Assembly: GCA_946623785.1 (NCBI GenBank)
Contig: CAMORM010000009.1
Location: forward strand, 1-40,144
Direction: 5' to 3'
Length of the DNA stretch: 40,144 nt
Origin: an uncultured Verrucomicrobiota bacterium
GTDB taxonomy: Bacteria; Verrucomicrobiota; Kiritimatiellia; RFP12; UBA1067
Part shown: positions 3,064 through 39,153 of the stretch, piece by piece
Layout: each line of letters starts with the position of its first letter
Numbering within the stretch: the first letter of the stretch is position 1
Notes under the pieces: model-generated
Databases searched by the model: none
What the model was told of the DNA's origin: nothing
Seen by the model: the letters and a program-made list of their open reading frames with translations, nothing else
Program-made: the position numbers and the translations under genes

Positions 3064-4257
3064 GTGAATGTCGGTCATAGAATAAAAGCGTGCGCGCTTT
3101 GCGTGGCGGCGGTTTTCGGGCTTGCATTAGCCACCTATGCCGCGGAGTATGACGTTGCCGCTTACGTGTGGCCCGCATACCAGCCTGAGCCGCGCTGGGC
3201 GGAGCTTGGCATATTCGGGGACGGCAAGGGCGAATGGCAGAACCTCTACGAGGCGAAGAAGCGCCAGGAGTGCGACTACCAGGGAGTCAAGCCGCTCTGG
3301 GGATACGAGGACGAGTCGGATCCTGTTGCCGTTGCGCGGAAAATCGACGCCGCAACAGCAGCGGGCGTAAACGTGTTCATCTACGACTGGTACTGGTACG
3401 GCGGGCGTCCGTTCCTCGAGAACGCATTGGACAAGGGCTTCCTCGGCGCGAAGAACTGCGAGAGGATGAAGTTCTACGTCATGTGGGCGAACCACGACGT
3501 GACAGGACTGTGGAACAACAAGATGTCCACTGCGGACGGCAAGAACGACGTGATATGGCCCGCGAAGGTCTCGGACGAAGACTTCAACGCGATCGTGGAC
3601 CGCTGGATCAAGCTGTACTTCTCGCGTCCGAACTACTACAAGATCGACGGCAAGCCAGTCCTCTCCATCTACGACATCGAGGGATTCGTGAAGTGGGACG
3701 GTCTCGGCAAGGCGAAGGCGCGCCTCGCCTATTTGCGCGAACGCGTGAAGTCGGCGGGATTCCCGGGGCTTCATCTTCAGGTGGTCGGTGGGTATTTCCT
3801 GGTGAACGCGAAGGACGCGCTGCCCGAGCTCGGGGTCGACTCCTTCACGAGCTACAGCTGGAACGACGGCACATGGGGGCAGATCAACGACAAGGCCAGA
3901 CCGGAGTTCTCGTATTCGGAATGGGGCGACGCGGCCGTGAAGTTCCACGACAGGTACATGGCAGGCGCGAAAGCGCTCGGCGCGGTGTACTTCCCGAACC
4001 TGACCGTCGGGTGGGACACGAACGCACGCTACCCGATGACCGAGACGCGGCGGATCGTCCGCAACTCGAACCCAGTCGACTTCGAGTGCTTCGCGAGGCA
4101 TGTCAAGTCGTGGGCTGATGCCAACATCCCCGCGAACATGCCGAAGCTGATAACTGTCAACTCGTGGAACGAGTGGACGGAGGGCACGTACCTCGAGCCA
4201 GACGACCGCTTCGGCTACGGATATCTCAACGCATTGTGGAACGTGTTCGGCCGGTAG
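3064..4257 (+). CDS. Secreted WbsX / GH99-like family protein
   Basis: Predicted protein of 397 aa starting at GTG 3064, with GAGGAG at 3052-3057. The start is supported by the matching GTG start and surrounding sequence of the gene at 4379. Residues 1-27 form a signal peptide. The mature part is a single (beta/alpha)8-type domain of the WbsX family, related to GH99 endo-mannosidases and glycosyltransferase WbsX: an N-terminal AAYVWPAYQPE strand, VFIYDWYWYGGRPFLE near residue 110, and the hallmark VNSWNEWTEGTYLEPD near residues 365-380. Stand-alone exported members are abundant in polysaccharide-degrading gut bacteria and probably cleave a mannose- or fucose-containing glycan; the substrate cannot be read from sequence. 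It is co-oriented with, and resembles the C-terminal domain of, the next gene. Confidence 0.85.
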   Translation: MNVGHRIKACALCVAAVFGLALATYAAEYDVAAYVWPAYQPEPRWAELGIFGDGKGEWQNLYEAKKRQECDYQGVKPLWGYEDESDPVAVARKIDAATAAGVNVFIYDWYWYGGRPFLENALDKGFLGAKNCERMKFYVMWANHDVTGLWNNKMSTADGKNDVIWPAKVSDEDFNAIVDRWIKLYFSRPNYYKIDGKPVLSIYDIEGFVKWDGLGKAKARLAYLRERVKSAGFPGLHLQVVGGYFLVNAKDALPELGVDSFTSYSWNDGTWGQINDKARPEFSYSEWGDAAVKFHDRYMAGAKALGAVYFPNLTVGWDTNARYPMTETRRIVRNSNPVDFECFARHVKSWADANIPANMPKLITVNSWNEWTEGTYLEPDDRFGYGYLNALWNVFGR

Positions 4258-4344
4258 CCCAATCACAACGCCCCTGCCTCGATGACTTCAAGAAGCGGCA
4301 CGTTGTGGAAGTGACGGTCGAACGTGCAAAGAGGCGCATTATTG

Positions 4345-4350
4345 TATAAT
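4345..4350 (+). promoter_or_regulatory. -10 box upstream of the SGNH-GH99 gene
   Basis: A perfect TATAAT preceded by GCATTATTG, as at 281-297. No good -35 hexamer lies 16-18 nt upstream, so this promoter may need an activator or work through its extended -10. The imperfect match to the first gene's promoter suggests a duplicated control region. Confidence 0.55.
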
Positions 4351-4378
4351 CAGCTAGCAAAACATCAAGGAGACTGTT

Positions 4379-7336
4379 GTGGATATCGGCCATAAACTGA
4401 AAGTATGCTTGCTTAGCGCGGCCACGGTGGTTCTCGGGCTTGCGTTTTCCGCGGATGGCGCCGTTGTGGACGATGCGACGCGGATGGGTTCGGAGATGAT
4501 GAACCCCAGCGGCTCGATCGGCATCACGGAGAAGTCGAAGTCCGGCGACTTCAAGATACTGTTCTACGGCAACTCGATCACCAGCCACGCGCCATGCCCG
4601 GGCATCGGGTGGACGAACGACTGCGGCATGGCGGCGAGCTCGAAGGAGAAGGACTACGCGCACATCGTCATCGCGGAGCTTGAGAGGCGGCTCGGGAAGA
4701 AGGCGGACTTCCGAATCCGCAACCTGGCGCCGTTCGAGCGAAACTACACTACGAACGTCGCGTCCGTCGCCGAGATCGTCGCCGACGCCGCGTGGTCGCC
4801 GGACTACGTGGTCATCGCGCTCGGCGAGAACGCCCCGAACGTCAACGATTCGACCGCGGCGGACTACACCAAGTTCCTCGTCGATCTTGCGCGCCCGTTC
4901 GCGGGCAAGGGGAAGAAGGTCGTGCTGCGCTCGCCGTTCTGGGTGAACCCGAAGAAGGCCGAGTGCACGGAGAAGGCGGCTGCCGAAGTCGGCGCGGTGT
5001 ACGTCGACGCTGGCCCGCTCGGGCGGGTCGCGGAGAACAAGGCCCTGGGACTTTTCAGCCACAAGGGCGTCGCAAACCACCCGGGCGACCTTGGGATGAA
5101 GCGCATTGCGGAACTTGTCCTCTCCGGGTTCTTCCCGCAGGCGGAGTCTGGATCGTCCATCGGGCGCGTGCGGGAGCTCCTTGCGAAGGTCGAGGGGCGC
5201 GAGGAGTGCAAGAAGATGGACTTCTTCGACCTCGAGCAGCCGGTCGCAGTGACGGGCGACACGGCGGTGGCGCTCAAGCTCAGGTGCGAGGTCACGGGCG
5301 ACTGCGTAATGTACTGGCGCTCGGAGAGCATGCCCAACTTCGTGTCGGAGTGCGGCGTGCGGTTCTCCGCGATAGGCGACGGGCAGTACCACTCGTACGT
5401 CCTCCGTCCCGACTGGAAGGTTAGCGACAGGATCGTGAAGCTCAGGATCGACTTCCCGTACGACAGGAAGAACCCGGACCGCCAGGTGTCGAACGACATA
5501 AAGGGCGTCATATTCGTGCGCAACGGCTTTGCGCCGTTCGACTCGAAGGACGCGGACGGAATCGTGTTCCGCATGAAGTCAGACAAGTTCGAGTACCTTT
5601 CGATGAACTGGAAGGCGAGGAAGGGCGAGAAGGACGCCAAGCCTTTCTACATGGGCTTCACCACGATCCCGGACGGCCGCGAGCATACGTTCTGGTTCGA
5701 CCTCAGGAACACGAAGGAGCGCATCACCTTCGGTGCCCCGCACTGGTATGGGACGATCGAGGGCTTCTGCTTCCGCGCAAACCTTAGGGCCGCTGAGTTC
5801 ACGCCAAAGGGCGTGGAGTTCGTGAAGGGCGTTCCTTCCATTCCCGCCGATCCCGTCGTTCGCCAGGTCTTCCCCGAGGACGCGATTCCGCGCACGGGTC
5901 GTCCGCTGCCGATTGAGATCGTCGTCAGGAACTACGGCACGGAGCCTGCGGAGGGAATCCGCTTTGCGGTCGAGGGGCTTCCGGAAGGCGTTCGCGTCCT
6001 CGATCCGTCCGACCTCTCGCCGAAGGGGTCTGTCGCGCCGAGCGCAGGCTACGACTACATACGCGACGACTACATGCCGAACGGGCTTCCCAACGAGCGG
6101 CGCTTCCGCATCACGCTTTCCGATCCGGGGCGTCCGGTCGACTTCACTGCGAAGCTCGTCCTATCCGCGAACGGCGGCGCGCGGAGCGAGAAGTCGTTCC
6201 ACGTCAAGGTGCTGCCGTCGCTTGGACTTGCGAAGTGCGCGTATCCGCCTGAGCCGAGGCCGCTGGACACAGGCGACGTGGAGATTGGCGTCTTTCTCTT
6301 TCCCGGCTGGGTGCGCCACCAGTGGTATCCGGCGTGGGATGCGAAGCCGGAGCGCAAGCCGATGCTCGGCTGGTACGACGACCGGCTGCCCGAAGTGCGC
6401 GACTGGCAGATCAAGTGGCTTGTGGAGAACGGAGTCTCGTATGCGTTCGTCGACTGGTACTGGGATCCGGGCAAGGGCCCGCGGCCAGGCTACTGGTTCG
6501 AGGGAATCGCAAAGGCGCGCTACCGCAAGTACCTGAAGTACGCGGCGCTTTGGTGCAACGAGGGGTCGTACCGACATTCGGAGAAGGACCAGGAGGAGGT
6601 TACGAAGTACTGGATAGACAACTTCTTCTCCGACCCGCAGTACATGAAGATCGACGGCAGGCCCGTCATCGGAATGTGGGGGCTCAACATGGACAAGGCG
6701 CTCGGGCCGGGCGGCGCGAAGAAGCTCCTCGCAATCTCCCAGCAGCTTGCACGCGACGCAGGGTATCCCGGCATCTACTTCGTGAGCATGCACGGCGACG
6801 TGAAGCTGGCCGACGTCCGCCGCCGGCTGAAGGACGACGGGTTTTCTGCGAGCTTCGAATACTGCTACACCTCTCGCTGGTCGGTACACTGGCCGGGGCT
6901 CGTCAACGGCGCGATCGACTATTCCGCGGTGGCAGACTCGTCGCTTGCGCACTGGCGGGAGCTTCGCGAAGGGTGCGACCTGCCGTTCTTCCCGTCGCTT
7001 TCGACCGGATGGGGCAATCTGCCGTGGCTCGGCGACAGGGGATGGGAGATCGCGAACAAGACGCCCGGGAAGTTCGAGAAGGTCTGCCGCGACGCGAAGC
7101 GCTTCAGTGACGAGACCGGGGTGAAGCGCCTCCTTCTGGGGCCGCTCGACGAGTGGTGCGAAGGCGAGATCGGCTGGCCGAACGCCGAGCACGGGTTCGG
7201 CATGCTCGAGGCCGTGCGCGAGACGTTTGCGAAGAAGCCGCCGGAGGGCTTCCCGCTCAACTACGGGCCTCAGGACGTCGGACTAGGCCCGTACACCAAG
7301 GACGCGTCAGTGATCGACCCCACCGCCAGCCGCTGA
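4379..7336 (+). CDS. Exported SGNH hydrolase fused to a GH99/WbsX-like domain
   Basis: Predicted protein of 985 aa starting at GTG 4379, with AAGGAG at 4367-4372. Residues 1-28 are a signal peptide. Residues about 58-260 are an SGNH/GDSL hydrolase: ILFYGNSIT carries the nucleophile Ser66, and NHPGDLGM carries the catalytic His234. The usual Asp two or three residues before that His is absent (GVAN precedes it), as in some divergent subfamilies. Residues about 280-610 are beta-sandwich-like, including a CARDB/NEW3-like stretch (IEIVVRNYGTEPAEG). Residues about 635-955 are a second catalytic domain of the WbsX/GH99 type, with AFVDWYWDPG and, near the end, PLDEWCEGEIGWPNAEHG in place of the NSWNEWTEG of the 3064 gene. 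An esterase joined to a glycosidase suggests that it de-esterifies and then cuts the same exported glycan. The architecture is inferred by eye. Confidence 0.82.
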   Translation: MDIGHKLKVCLLSAATVVLGLAFSADGAVVDDATRMGSEMMNPSGSIGITEKSKSGDFKILFYGNSITSHAPCPGIGWTNDCGMAASSKEKDYAHIVIAELERRLGKKADFRIRNLAPFERNYTTNVASVAEIVADAAWSPDYVVIALGENAPNVNDSTAADYTKFLVDLARPFAGKGKKVVLRSPFWVNPKKAECTEKAAAEVGAVYVDAGPLGRVAENKALGLFSHKGVANHPGDLGMKRIAELVLSGFFPQAESGSSIGRVRELLAKVEGREECKKMDFFDLEQPVAVTGDTAVALKLRCEVTGDCVMYWRSESMPNFVSECGVRFSAIGDGQYHSYVLRPDWKVSDRIVKLRIDFPYDRKNPDRQVSNDIKGVIFVRNGFAPFDSKDADGIVFRMKSDKFEYLSMNWKARKGEKDAKPFYMGFTTIPDGREHTFWFDLRNTKERITFGAPHWYGTIEGFCFRANLRAAEFTPKGVEFVKGVPSIPADPVVRQVFPEDAIPRTGRPLPIEIVVRNYGTEPAEGIRFAVEGLPEGVRVLDPSDLSPKGSVAPSAGYDYIRDDYMPNGLPNERRFRITLSDPGRPVDFTAKLVLSANGGARSEKSFHVKVLPSLGLAKCAYPPEPRPLDTGDVEIGVFLFPGWVRHQWYPAWDAKPERKPMLGWYDDRLPEVRDWQIKWLVENGVSYAFVDWYWDPGKGPRPGYWFEGIAKARYRKYLKYAALWCNEGSYRHSEKDQEEVTKYWIDNFFSDPQYMKIDGRPVIGMWGLNMDKALGPGGAKKLLAISQQLARDAGYPGIYFVSMHGDVKLADVRRRLKDDGFSASFEYCYTSRWSVHWPGLVNGAIDYSAVADSSLAHWRELREGCDLPFFPSLSTGWGNLPWLGDRGWEIANKTPGKFEKVCRDAKRFSDETGVKRLLLGPLDEWCEGEIGWPNAEHGFGMLEAVRETFAKKPPEGFPLNYGPQDVGLGPYTKDASVIDPTASR

Positions 7337-35995: not shown

Positions 35996-36072
35996 GGGCG
36001 CTTAGCTCAGTTGGTTAGAGCATTACCTTCACACGGTAGGGGTCACTGGTCCGAGTCCAGTAGCGCCCACCA
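35996..36072 (+). tRNA. tRNA-Val, anticodon CAC
   Basis: A 77-nt gene with encoded CCA. The acceptor stem GGGCGCT/AGCGCCC is perfect. The D arm is GCTC/GAGC, the anticodon arm TTACC/GGTAG has loop TTCACAC (anticodon CAC, reading GTG), and the T stem ACTGG/CCAGT is perfect. The T loop is TCCGAGT instead of the near-universal TTCGAGT/TTCAAAT, so position 55 is C and cannot become pseudouridine. The gene is likely still functional because all stems are intact. It marks the switch from chromosome-like to element-like sequence. Confidence 0.93.
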
Positions 36073-36111: not shown

Positions 36112-36208
36112 CGCTTTCGTGGACTGGCTTATTCGCCTTTCGCCTCAAGTCCGTAGTCTCGCCTCGTCCTTTGTGTCAGTTCGTGCAAGGTGGTGTTCCC
36201 TTGCGGCA

Positions 36209-36230
36209 GTACGGACAAAAGTACGGACAA
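36209..36230. repeat. Direct repeat GTACGGACAA, two copies
   Basis: Identical 10-bp copies at 36209-36218 and 36221-36230, 12 bp apart in phase, about 140 bp from the tRNA end. Short direct repeats at this position are often arm-type binding sites of an integrase or excisionase. Confidence 0.6.
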
Positions 36231-36336
36231 TCTTTCGCTCCCTTAGACCAAAGAGCCTTTCGGTATCTTGTGTTCCAAGTAATGTGTAGTGTAGCATAAT
36301 CGCAGGTATGGGCCAATGGTAAAATGCGCTCATACG

Positions 36337-36466: not shown

Positions 36467-36778
36467 TTATTTCCTGCCGTACTTCTTGCGGGCTTCGGCA
36501 AGCCCCCATTTCGCCATGCCCCAATGGACATGGCTGATGATATAGTCCCAATCCTCATCGGTTAGATTCTGGTATACGGCGATGAGGTCTTGTCGGATTT
36601 GCTCGTTCTCTTCTTTCGTGTCATTGAAAGAGGCGGGCGAACCGCTATAGAAGCTGATTTCGTAGTATCTTTTGGCTTTGTCGGAAGCACCAAGGTACAC
36701 TCCCCGAAAACCCCGCTTCTGGTAGAAGTCCAATCCAGCCTGATACCTTGGATTGAGGGCAATGACTTTGTTTGACAT
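36467..36778 (-). CDS. Small unrecognised protein sharing a WDYII-x-H motif with its neighbour
   Basis: Predicted protein of 103 aa and the last gene of the leftward operon. ATG 36778 has a perfect GGAGG 6 nt upstream; the frame stays open further upstream but that part lies over the previous gene. Sequence features: a basic N-terminal part (MSNKVIALNPRYQAGLDFYQ), an aromatic-rich strand (KRYYEISFYSGSP), an acidic helix, then DEDWDYIISHVHWGMAKWGL and a basic tail (ARKKYGRK). The WDYII-x-H block and the preceding aromatic stretch resemble residues 134-170 of the 305-aa protein just upstream. I do not recognise the family; no signal, membrane helix or known catalytic motif is visible. A DNA- or protein-binding accessory role is conjecture. 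Confidence 0.75.
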   Translation of the reverse strand: MSNKVIALNPRYQAGLDFYQKRGFRGVYLGASDKAKRYYEISFYSGSPASFNDTKEENEQIRQDLIAVYQNLTDEDWDYIISHVHWGMAKWGLAEARKKYGRK

Positions 36779-36780
36779 GG

Positions 36781-37698
36781 CTATCCTCCTTGTTCCGTTT
36801 CTGCCCACATTGCATGGGCGGTATCTATAAGACGCTTTTGGGATGATTCGTCCCAATAGTGCAAGTCCCAGAACGGGCCGCGGAAGAAGAAGCTTCCGCT
36901 TCCATAGCCGGTCTTACGCATGTCGAGGCATAGTGCCTTGAGGCCGCTTCTCCGTATATCCGCAAGTGTAACGTCGTGGTATTTCGCCGTAAACCATCTG
37001 CGGCCGCTGTCGTAGCCTATCTTGGCAAGGGCGAGTTCTTCAAGGATCTTCCGCATTTGATTCTCACCGAAAGAATCCGCATTCTTCGGACGATGCCGCC
37101 CTCGCCACCAAAACATATTCGTGCCGTCGGGCTGACCTTGCATGTGCTCCCGTATGTCCATGAGGTCGGACTTGAGATGCTTTGTCTCGGCATGGGCGAT
37201 GATGTAGTCCCAAGAGACATCGTTCATAACTCTGTAGTGGTCATATATGGTCTTTTCGCTATACTCGCTACCACCAAGGCTTCGCTGGTAGAATAGCCTT
37301 GCTCCCTCCGGGGCATTGTCGTATATCATCCGCCCGTATTCCGTGCGGCGGAACTCCGCGACACGGCTCTTGGCGACATTGCTCCAATCATGTGGCAACA
37401 ATTCTTTCGCGGCAATTATGGACGGTTCTCGCATATAGAGCCATTCAGTTCCCTTTGGCATGAACTGGAGGAATGCCCGCAGTTGGCCGTAGCCGCATAT
37501 TGCTGCACCGCAACTTGCACCGGGAATGAAGCGGTCCCATGATTCGTCGTCCATGAGGCACATTCTGCCGTCAGGCGAGAGAACTCTACCATGATTGACG
37601 GTAGTTCCGCTGAATGTGTCATTGAGTCGCCACATCCGTATGCACTCGTCGAGTGCTGCGTTGTCTTTCAATGTCATTATGCTTTCTTTCATGTTCAT
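36781..37698 (-). CDS. Unrecognised 305-aa element protein
   Basis: Starts at ATG 37698 with GAGGG just upstream, overlapping the stop of the previous gene (ATGA), and ends 2 nt before the next ATG, so translation is tightly coupled. No signal peptide or membrane helix. It is rich in Trp, Tyr and Arg. Notable phrases are RVLSPDGRMCLMDDESWDRF near 38-57, SWDYIIAHAETKHLK at 162-176 (shared motif), MFWWRGRHRP near 197-206, and a C-terminal YGSGSFFFRGPFWDLHYWDE followed by a helix. The C-terminal strand-helix piece looks like the middle of the 103-aa protein, so the protein may hold two or more related modules. Function unknown and no nuclease, ATPase or protease motif is evident. Confidence 0.78.
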   Translation of the reverse strand: MNMKESIMTLKDNAALDECIRMWRLNDTFSGTTVNHGRVLSPDGRMCLMDDESWDRFIPGASCGAAICGYGQLRAFLQFMPKGTEWLYMREPSIIAAKELLPHDWSNVAKSRVAEFRRTEYGRMIYDNAPEGARLFYQRSLGGSEYSEKTIYDHYRVMNDVSWDYIIAHAETKHLKSDLMDIREHMQGQPDGTNMFWWRGRHRPKNADSFGENQMRKILEELALAKIGYDSGRRWFTAKYHDVTLADIRRSGLKALCLDMRKTGYGSGSFFFRGPFWDLHYWDESSQKRLIDTAHAMWAETEQGG

Positions 37699-38252
37699 CC
37701 CTCTAGGTTTTTTCTTTCGGATCGGGCGTGAGCGGAATACAGCTCAAGAAACTCAGACATCCTTTTCCGCTCCGCCGCCGTGAACAGGTCTGCATCGCAT
37801 GACAGCCTTCTTATCTGCTCAAACTCGCTGGTTGCCGATTCCACTTCGACATTGATCCGCAAAGGCTCTCTCCCGTCCTCGGAGGCCATGAACAGCCCGA
37901 GACACCTTTCCGCGGTTGCAGTGTCGCCCTCTGCCTGCGCCCGCATTCCGGAAGCCTTAAGCCACTGGTCGATGCACACGGTCTTTTTGTAGTGGCGCCA
38001 ATGCCTTTCGACATCCATCTGCCGCCAGTCTGCCGCATCCTGCAGTGCGGGGAAGCCGCCATCCTTGAGCGTGTTGACCAGCCGCACCAGTCCTTCGCGG
38101 AACACGTTGCTCTCCGCCGTGAAGTGCCAGACATAGCAGTTGAGGTTGTATTCGACGAGGAAGGTCAGATTGCCGTCGTGTCGCTCGCCTATCGCCTGGA
38201 AGAACGACGGGCAACCCTTTTTGCTGACGATGAAGAAATCGTCCTTGTCCAT
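37695..38252 (-). CDS. Unrecognised element protein, main part of a gene interrupted by a probable frameshift
   Basis: Read alone, this frame gives 185 aa from ATG 38252, but GGAG touches that ATG directly, leaving no spacing for a ribosome. A better start at 38379 lies one frame away and encodes the missing N-terminus (next entry). Joining the two at a GGGG run (38264-38267, read as CCCC on +) by removing one base gives 227 aa. Contents: FFIVSKKGCPSFFQ, LTFLVEYNLNCYVWHF, a helix (VFREGLVRLVNTLKDGGFPA), RHWRHYKKTVCIDQWLKA, and a C-terminal helix with Cys residues. No known motif. It may be a sequencing or assembly error, a genuine pseudogene or programmed slippage. Confidence 0.6.
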   Translation of the reverse strand: MDKDDFFIVSKKGCPSFFQAIGERHDGNLTFLVEYNLNCYVWHFTAESNVFREGLVRLVNTLKDGGFPALQDAADWRQMDVERHWRHYKKTVCIDQWLKASGMRAQAEGDTATAERCLGLFMASEDGREPLRINVEVESATSEFEQIRRLSCDADLFTAAERKRMSEFLELYSAHARSERKNLEG

Positions 38253-38379
38253 CTCCTTTCGTACCCCTCGTCGTCACGAGATGCGTGTACATCTCGATTT
38301 CGTTCGCAACCCGCTCCCTCAGCGCCGCGTGTCTAAGCCGCAGGCTTTCGAATTCGCCGTTGAATCCAACTTCGTTCAT
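38253..38379 (-). other. Likely N-terminal piece of the frameshifted gene
   Basis: ATG 38379 has GGAG 8 nt upstream and begins MNEVGFNGEFESLRLRHAAL, continuing as a plausible helix (RERVANEIEMYTHLV) up to the G-run. After the run this frame becomes low-quality basic sequence, whereas the +1 frame continues as a normal protein. On its own the frame stays open to 37957, but I do not consider that extension a gene. Confidence 0.55.
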
Positions 38380-38403
38380 CGTCTGTTCTCCGTGTTATTT
38401 TTG

Positions 38404-38787
38404 TTAAATTAGTACATTGCGGGACTGCTCTATGAAGGCATTTCGGCGAGCCTTCGTCATCCTTTCGCGGACTTGTATGTGGCATGTCTCTGCGTCCATG
38501 TCGGCATTCCTCCGCTGTTTCTCCACAACGGAATCATCCTGCGTGATTGCAATGGGCCTGACTGGCCGCCGGGAGAGGTTGAGACGGGTTGATTGCGCTT
38601 CCGCCGCAAGCAAGTCCTTAAGGCGAGAAAGCACGGCATCAATGAAAGCGGGGTTGCCTGAAATGCGAATGCCGCAAGCCCCCAATGTGGAGCCCTTGGC
38701 ACCTGCGGCTATCGGGGTGAAGTGCGGCAGGATGGGCTGGTCGCCTTCTAGCAATTGCCAATGGCGGAGCGCTTCTTTCTTGTTCAT
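38404..38787 (-). CDS. Unrecognised 127-aa element protein, first gene of the leftward operon
   Basis: ATG 38787 is chosen because AAGGAGAAGGG lies just upstream; the open frame extends to 38961, and ATG 38961 could add 58 basic residues but has only a distant GGAG. The core is well formed: LRHWQLLEGDQPILPHFTPI, KGSTLGACGIRISG and AFIDAVLSRLKDLLAAE, then TRLNLSRRPV and a charged C-terminus. The GSTxGACGIRI-G-x-P-x-FIDAVLSRLKDLL stretch has the look of a conserved small family of mobile elements, but I cannot name it. It is cytoplasmic, with no membrane segment. It is separated by only 24 nt from the frameshifted gene. Confidence 0.7.
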   Translation of the reverse strand: MNKKEALRHWQLLEGDQPILPHFTPIAAGAKGSTLGACGIRISGNPAFIDAVLSRLKDLLAAEAQSTRLNLSRRPVRPIAITQDDSVVEKQRRNADMDAETCHIQVRERMTKARRNAFIEQSRNVLI

Positions 38788-38990
38788 TCTAAGTCCCTTC
38801 TCCTTCGTCGAGCCTTTCAGGAGAGGGACCATTCCCCGCAAACGATTGGCCGCCCACCTTGCAATCAAGACGAGCGGCCTACTGAAACATGTTTCCCTTG
38901 TCGGGCACATCGCCTCTCGGCTACCACCGTGGTGTTTCAACTCGGTTGGTGTAACCAGCATCTCTGCCGATTAACTCCTGATGTCTTGAC
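38788..38990 (-). other. Long 5' leader of the element operon with a palindrome
   Basis: About 200 nt separate the predicted transcript start (near 38,990) from ATG 38787. It contains the perfect palindrome GAAACATGTTTC (38884-38895) and a near-palindrome ACCACCGTGGT (about 38931-38941), and the reading frame of the operon's first gene stays open through it up to 38961. It could be a regulatory leader with operator sites or, less likely, an N-terminal extension of the first protein. Confidence 0.45.
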
Positions 38991-38997
38991 GGGCGGG

Positions 38998-39027
38998 ATT
39001 GTACCAAACCCCCGCTGAGGCTGTCAA
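38998..39027 (-). promoter_or_regulatory. Strong leftward promoter of the element operon
   Basis: Read on the - strand: TTGACA (39027-39022), 18-nt spacer and TACAAT (39003-38998), with GGGTTTGG before the -10. It has the best -35 of the whole window. It faces away from the rightward promoter at 39,369, giving the divergent layout typical of phage and plasmid control regions. Confidence 0.75.
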
Positions 39028-39132: not shown

Positions 39133-39153
39133 CCCCCCCCCCCCCCCCCCCCC
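39133..39153. repeat. Run of 21 C residues
   Basis: An uninterrupted 21-nt C tract, by far the longest homopolymer in the window. Its length is unreliable in any sequence. It sits in the control region between divergent promoters, so it may be a slippage switch, a structural element or an assembly artefact. Confidence 0.9.

Follow-up and report, generated by a model that had tools for sequence, protein, structure and literature searches.

Riboswitches are known mainly as metabolic regulators, and the SAM-I/IV class normally senses the methyl donor SAM (S-adenosylmethionine). The RNA that heads the operon analysed here resembles the described SAM-I/IV riboswitch (RF01725; Weinberg et al., 2010, PMC2864571) in scoring above the Rfam cut-off, in its helices and pseudoknot, in a P2 without an internal loop and in its position in a 5' leader. 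It differs in the genes that follow, as it heads uncharacterised cargo of a mobile element, whereas the recognisable downstream genes in the phylum are methionine and SAM genes. The nearest described case is RCd22 (PMC12373285), which precedes the prophage abortive-infection gene AbiF and which its authors call riboswitch-like. It is comparable as a structured leader RNA, there of a prophage defence gene, but falls within another RNA family (abiF motif, RF03085), for which a small-molecule ligand is not known. A search of the open-access literature, with incomplete coverage, gave no publication that places a SAM riboswitch in a defence island or mobile element.

Two further systems bear on the locus. 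Phages deplete SAM as a counter-defence against type I restriction, and their anti-restriction SAM lyases would supply the falling-SAM signal for such a switch (PMC7877911; PMC8406200). Integrative elements and defence islands borne on tRNA genes share with the present elements, as seen in the relative L003, a tRNA 3'-end target, a tyrosine recombinase, an att repeat and type I restriction-modification (R-M) cargo. Unlike these, the present elements carry a cargo operon behind a metabolite riboswitch, and one shared leader heads differing cargo.

The tRNA-Val(CAC) element and its gene array

The window, that is, the whole stretch of DNA analysed, is an entire MAG contig of 40,144 bases, and the contig end cuts the element. 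A leftward array at 36467-38787 on the minus strand adjoins tRNA-Val(CAC) and comprises, in order, P0004, a J-domain stub, P0003, P0002 and P0001 (Table 1). The four-gene operon described in an earlier note on this DNA stands as an array with ORFs of 103, 305 and 127 aa, but not as four intact genes, since the supposed gene of about 227 aa has no single ORF. In its place, the stub runs in frame for 41 codons and then passes out of frame into the 185-aa ORF of P0003; either recombination left a scar here, or a frameshift or an indel in the assembly broke the frame. The tight coupling claimed for the operon is true of P0003-P0002, which overlap by ATGA, and of P0002-P0001, which are 2 nt apart, but not of the 127-aa gene, which is separated from the stub by 24 nt.

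Table 1. Features of the window that belong to the operon, its leader and the surrounding element.
Feature	Position	Strand	Remarks
tRNA-Val (CAC)	35996..36072	+	ARAGORN; same tRNA adjoins operon in L002 and L003
Non-coding flank containing repeats (e.g. GTCCGTACTTTTGTCCGTAC)	36180..36330	.	Kept in L003
P0001, 103 aa	36467..36778	-	One copy of new helical domain
P0002, 305 aa	36781..37698	-	Helical domain (residues ~110-195) with uncharacterised flanking parts
P0003, 185-aa ORF, kind unassigned	37695..38252	-	ORF list; start +1 relative to stub
J-domain (HPD) protein gene, N-terminal stub of ~41 codons	38257..38379	-	Full-length gene in L002 and L003
P0004, 127 aa	38404..38787	-	First gene 3' of riboswitch; homologues in tailed phages
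Predicted hairpin, GUCCCUCUCC pairing with GGAGAAGGGAC	38792..38830	-	RNA fold; covers P0004 Shine-Dalgarno region
14-bp hairpin directly 3' of aptamer	38848..38879	-	RNA fold and leader comparison
SAM-I/IV riboswitch aptamer (P1, P2, P3, P5-like hairpin, loop-tail pseudoknot)	38879..38989	-	RF01725
Promoter TTGACA-18-TACAAT, TG before -10	38998..39027	-	Conserved in L002, largely in L003
Divergent replication-initiation gene, O-like/DnaD type, cut by contig end	39526..40143	+	PHROG 270, E 2.3e-12

In a search of GTDB genomes, P0002, P0001 and the leader were found again in two other MAGs, L002 (a Verrucomicrobia MAG) and L003 (RUG11483), in both cases beside tRNA-Val(CAC). The two P0002 relatives are 82% (L002) and 65% (L003) identical, while P0001 is 63% identical in L003 and, in L002, a truncated form of about 35 aa. 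Purifying selection acts on both P0002 and P0001, whose dN/dS values against their relatives are 0.21-0.24 and 0.13, respectively, over 18-37% protein divergence. The four-gene order whose recurrence the earlier note had proposed as a check does not recur, as the genes 5' of P0002 differ between copies. In L003, the order is J-domain protein, HIRAN, a 273-aa protein, Sel1-like, P0002, P0001 and a 332-aa protein; in L002, it is p108, the 273-aa protein, J-domain protein, HIRAN, Sel1-like, ADP-ribosylglycohydrolase, P0002 and the truncated P0001. The copy in the window is the shortest. Its stub is 72% and 62% identical to the N-terminus of the J-domain protein in L002 and L003, respectively, over 39-40 aa. 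Only these N-terminal residues (about 39 aa) are retained, and the stub lacks the HPD region present in both relatives, and with it the HPD motif and J-domain that mark a J-domain co-chaperone. The DnaJ match of the L003 J-domain protein is itself slightly below the Pfam cut-off (E 2.3e-5). The window operon is best read as a shortened, partly decayed version of the longer array seen in its relatives.

The boundaries of the element are visible in L003, where 22.4 kb lie between copies of a 57-bp direct repeat of the 3' part of the tRNA, and the att copy distant from the tRNA adjoins an integrase. Between the att copies are hsdM, hsdS and hsdR, uncharacterised genes and then, at the tRNA, the switch operon. 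The window contig covers the tRNA end only and ends before the place where any hsd genes would lie; among the other contigs of the assembly, neither an overlap nor a second att copy was found for the remainder of the element. The 3' end of tRNA-Val is the presumed attachment site. The repeat-bearing non-coding flank next to it is probably the integrase arm-site region; in L003, the second att copy is accompanied by a comparable sequence, GTCCGTACTTTTGT. Both the tRNA-linked mobile element and the replication module next to the operon, as proposed in the earlier note, are borne out, the former by the bounded relative with its integrase and type I R-M genes, the latter by the O-like/DnaD-type initiator that extends to the contig end.

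The leader RNA

The promoter, rightly called near-perfect at first reading, is of the extended -10 type with 11 of 12 matches. Directly 3' of it, in a 200-nt leader 5' of P0004, sits the SAM-I/IV riboswitch. The earlier note had found no nameable motif in the operon, which holds for its proteins, as Pfam, PHROGs and NCBIfam give no match over the cut-off for any of the four, but not for the leader RNA. With the RF01725 covariance model (gathering cut-off 41.1 bits), the aptamers of the window and L002 score 50.9 and 53.1 bits, whereas that of L003 falls below the cut-off (34.3 bits) and is without a clear pseudoknot. Promoter, aptamer and downstream segment can be aligned between the window and L002, and largely with L003. 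A search for the SAM-I class (RF00162) found none in the three genomes.

In the window, helices P1-P3 are present, P2 is a continuous 9-bp helix without an internal loop in the predicted fold, and the P3 loop pairs with the 3' tail in a pseudoknot (UUGAAACA/UGUUUCAG). The pseudoknot partners have changed together across the window, L002 (UUGGAACA/UGUUCCGA), L182 and L009/L184 (UGAGAACA/UGUUCUCA in L184). Their covariation gives a summed score of 281; shuffled partners averaged 226, and none of 5000 shuffles scored as high. J1/2 of the window aptamer reads CAUCAGGAG instead of CAUCAAGAG. A change of ligand specificity from this AGGAG was considered and set aside, because two metK leaders from the same family, L026 and L028, have this G as well.

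The 14-bp hairpin that follows the aptamer has equivalents with compensatory changes in L002, L182, L003 and both switches of L213 (six leaders including the window). Further downstream, the predicted window fold places the P0004 ribosome site in a helix, whereas the global folds of L002 and L182 leave the ribosome site not fully covered. A scan for an intrinsic terminator after the aptamer hairpin found none, and the U-tract there is weak. Upstream of the leader, a run of 21 C at 39133-39153 lies between the two divergent transcription units and is missing at the matching place in L002; it is possibly a phase-variable tract or an assembly artefact.

The shared helical domain and phage homologues

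One domain recurs in P0001, in a section of P0002, in the 273-aa protein and twice, once per half, in the 332-aa protein. The predicted model of the P0001 domain is all-helical (pLDDT 84.1, pTM 0.76); an AlphaFold2 model of P0002 from three sequences had a mean pLDDT of 45.7 and was left out. The Foldseek check suggested in the earlier note was carried out with the P0001 domain model and returned no neighbour at E <1 in PDB or BFVD. Weak sequence matches in the PDB were at chance level, and a DinB_2 match of P0001 was weak and below the cut-off (E 0.042). This is an undescribed helical domain and a new domain family. It is present in five of 388 genomes of the phylum, all five in the family of the window.

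Domain proteins also follow a SAM-I/IV switch beside a tRNA-Ala in L213, from the genome of L002. L209, in another genome, is nearly identical to L213, but lacks some 120 nt with the aptamer and hairpin, while promoter and gene are kept. The loss is clean between otherwise near-identical leaders (L209 430-925 against L213 2040-2560), and may be an assembly error. The contig of L208 starts within the leader, and its first gene is common to a further SAM-led operon of L213.

Homologues of P0004 are found in tailed-phage contigs (L038 and L039, 48-49% identity) and in a 595-kb phage (32%). One 223-kb phage carries a one-domain protein together with a 50% identical homologue of p108, the first gene of the L002 operon. 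For P0003, no relatives were found, including in the phage collection; P0002 had no match in the phage collection, and neither P0002 nor P0004 had one in the plasmid collection. Given the occurrence of P0004 homologues and of the P0001/P0002 domain family in phages, the operon proteins appear as small phage-type proteins. Against the PADLOC-DB defence models, P0001, P0002 and P0003 had no match and P0004 had one weak match, to a type I specificity model (E 0.006); none is a convincing match to a known anti-phage defence system in that database.

Viral contigs were also scanned for the riboswitch. A short pattern gave 80 loci, mostly chance, of which three over the Rfam cut-off were retained; stricter patterns gave no loci. 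The three SAM-I/IV aptamers are in L077 (319-427), L087 (about 3223-3325) and L124. Those of L077 and L087 lie upstream of small uncharacterised genes, and the one in L077 adjoins a serine resolvase and terminase.

SAM-led loci and the proposed function of the operon

The SAM-I/IV class heads metY and metK in many genomes of the phylum. Apart from methionine genes, eight SAM-led loci of the clade were examined (window, L002, L003, L182, L184, L185, L212 and L213). L182, in a genome of the family of the window, has the same aptamer and platform; within 3474-5145, this element-type leader is followed by a MoxR-like ATPase gene, an uncharacterised gene and a DUF2201-like metallopeptidase gene. 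Defence genes adjoin four of the eight loci, which, in so small a set, is a lead rather than a statistic. L003 and L185 have type I R-M, L213 has type IIG/ISP, and L184 has Druantia III DruE together with an HNH gene. The contigs of the window, L002 and L182 end too early to show defence neighbours. A tRNA-Pro adjoining L184 was rejected as an att site, as the operon lies on the tRNA 5' side and no repeat was found. In L212 (117-1596), the switch precedes two genes near rnpA that have homologues among the accessory genes carried by the L003 element. Elsewhere in the phylum, SAM-I/IV switches in L023, L027, L030, L032, L033 and L035 are followed by short ORFs that look like an integrase arm-binding domain on its own (NHHLWNNNGTWFIHYT..RIRRSLGT), and those in L006, L012, L014 and L021 by another small uncharacterised family (PKTIRNWAVCE..).

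The element (bounded in a relative), the leader, the aptamer with its pseudoknot, the domain family and their recurrence were obtained by computation. From these we propose, as a reasonably probable reading, that the operon, led by a SAM riboswitch, is accessory cargo of an integrative element at tRNA-Val(CAC), placed at the end next to the tRNA, and that it likely acts on phage or restriction when SAM falls. Transcription from the strong promoter would run through the riboswitch, and expression would track host S-adenosylmethionine as that of host metK should. We infer SAM as the ligand, and likewise the sign of control, from the switch class: at high SAM, the leader would be closed and the operon off, and at low SAM, it would be open and the operon on. 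The platform probably exerts its effect where the first gene begins, through the hairpin after the pseudoknot and then the predicted helix over the ribosome site. In the window's own genome, the same switch class precedes metK (G000:C47, L215; 38.8 bits, below the cut-off), and the element therefore appears to have joined the host SAM regulon by means of a portable promoter-riboswitch leader. The cargo would most likely act on incoming phage or restriction once SAM is drawn down, because of the phage homology, the island context and the fact that phages degrade SAM to counter type I restriction. The setting described in the earlier note stands; the defence, anti-defence or maintenance role that it suggested, which we still infer, is strengthened by the four SAM-led loci with defence genes and by the phage homologues. 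An anti-phage or anti-restriction role is plausible though unproven.

A rather unlikely alternative holds that the switch is a captured host promoter and leader, that SAM times the cargo to growth state with phage irrelevant, and that the genes serve element maintenance or transfer. The shared switch class of host metK would fit this, as would the varied cargo behind one leader type (P0004, p108, the J-domain protein and the MoxR/DUF2201 pair), the O-like replication gene adjoining the operon and L209, where promoter and gene were kept without aptamer and hairpin. However, the sequences of metK leaders in the window's family are unlike those of the element leaders, which have their hairpin and platform in common across separate loci; furthermore, the switch is kept in most copies, and half of the loci examined have defence genes nearby.

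According to another explanation, which we consider unlikely, the operon is a phage-satellite module whose factors, made from captured phage genes, take over or block a helper phage. Phage homologues of P0004, p108 and the domain, two of these in the single 223-kb phage, are consistent with it, and the part of the element within the window has an O-like replication initiator, a gene to be expected of a PICI-like satellite, with structural genes not seen. Against this, no capsid- or packaging-interference gene was seen, and L003, the sole complete element, has R-M and no recognisable packaging genes of satellites. That the operon is a non-functional remnant, as the out-of-frame J-domain stub and the P0001 of about 35 aa in L002 might suggest, is very improbable given the dN/dS values of P0002 and P0001 and the intact promoter, aptamer and pseudoknot.

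The reading of the operon as SAM-led accessory cargo can be extended to a SAM-depletion alarm, a bolder proposal that we hold to be doubtful. Mobile elements of the family would then carry a portable promoter-riboswitch leader through which cargo with anti-phage or anti-restriction action is turned on when a phage drains SAM, for example with a SAM lyase, and would thereby guard the co-encoded SAM-dependent restriction.

The riboswitch over mobile-element cargo, missed at first reading, is the more interesting feature of this locus. Here, one riboswitch class precedes phage-related and variable cargo of integrative elements; in several loci it stands beside SAM-dependent restriction systems. 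Related switch-led operons adjoin anti-phage genes in kindred bacteria, and this suggests a coupling, through mobile elements, of accessory genes to the SAM level of the cell. Additionally, the domain family supplies new proteins open to assay. If control by SAM is true, a central cofactor would be linked to the conflict between phage and bacterium, and a direct question would follow: does a SAM-degrading phage turn the operon on?
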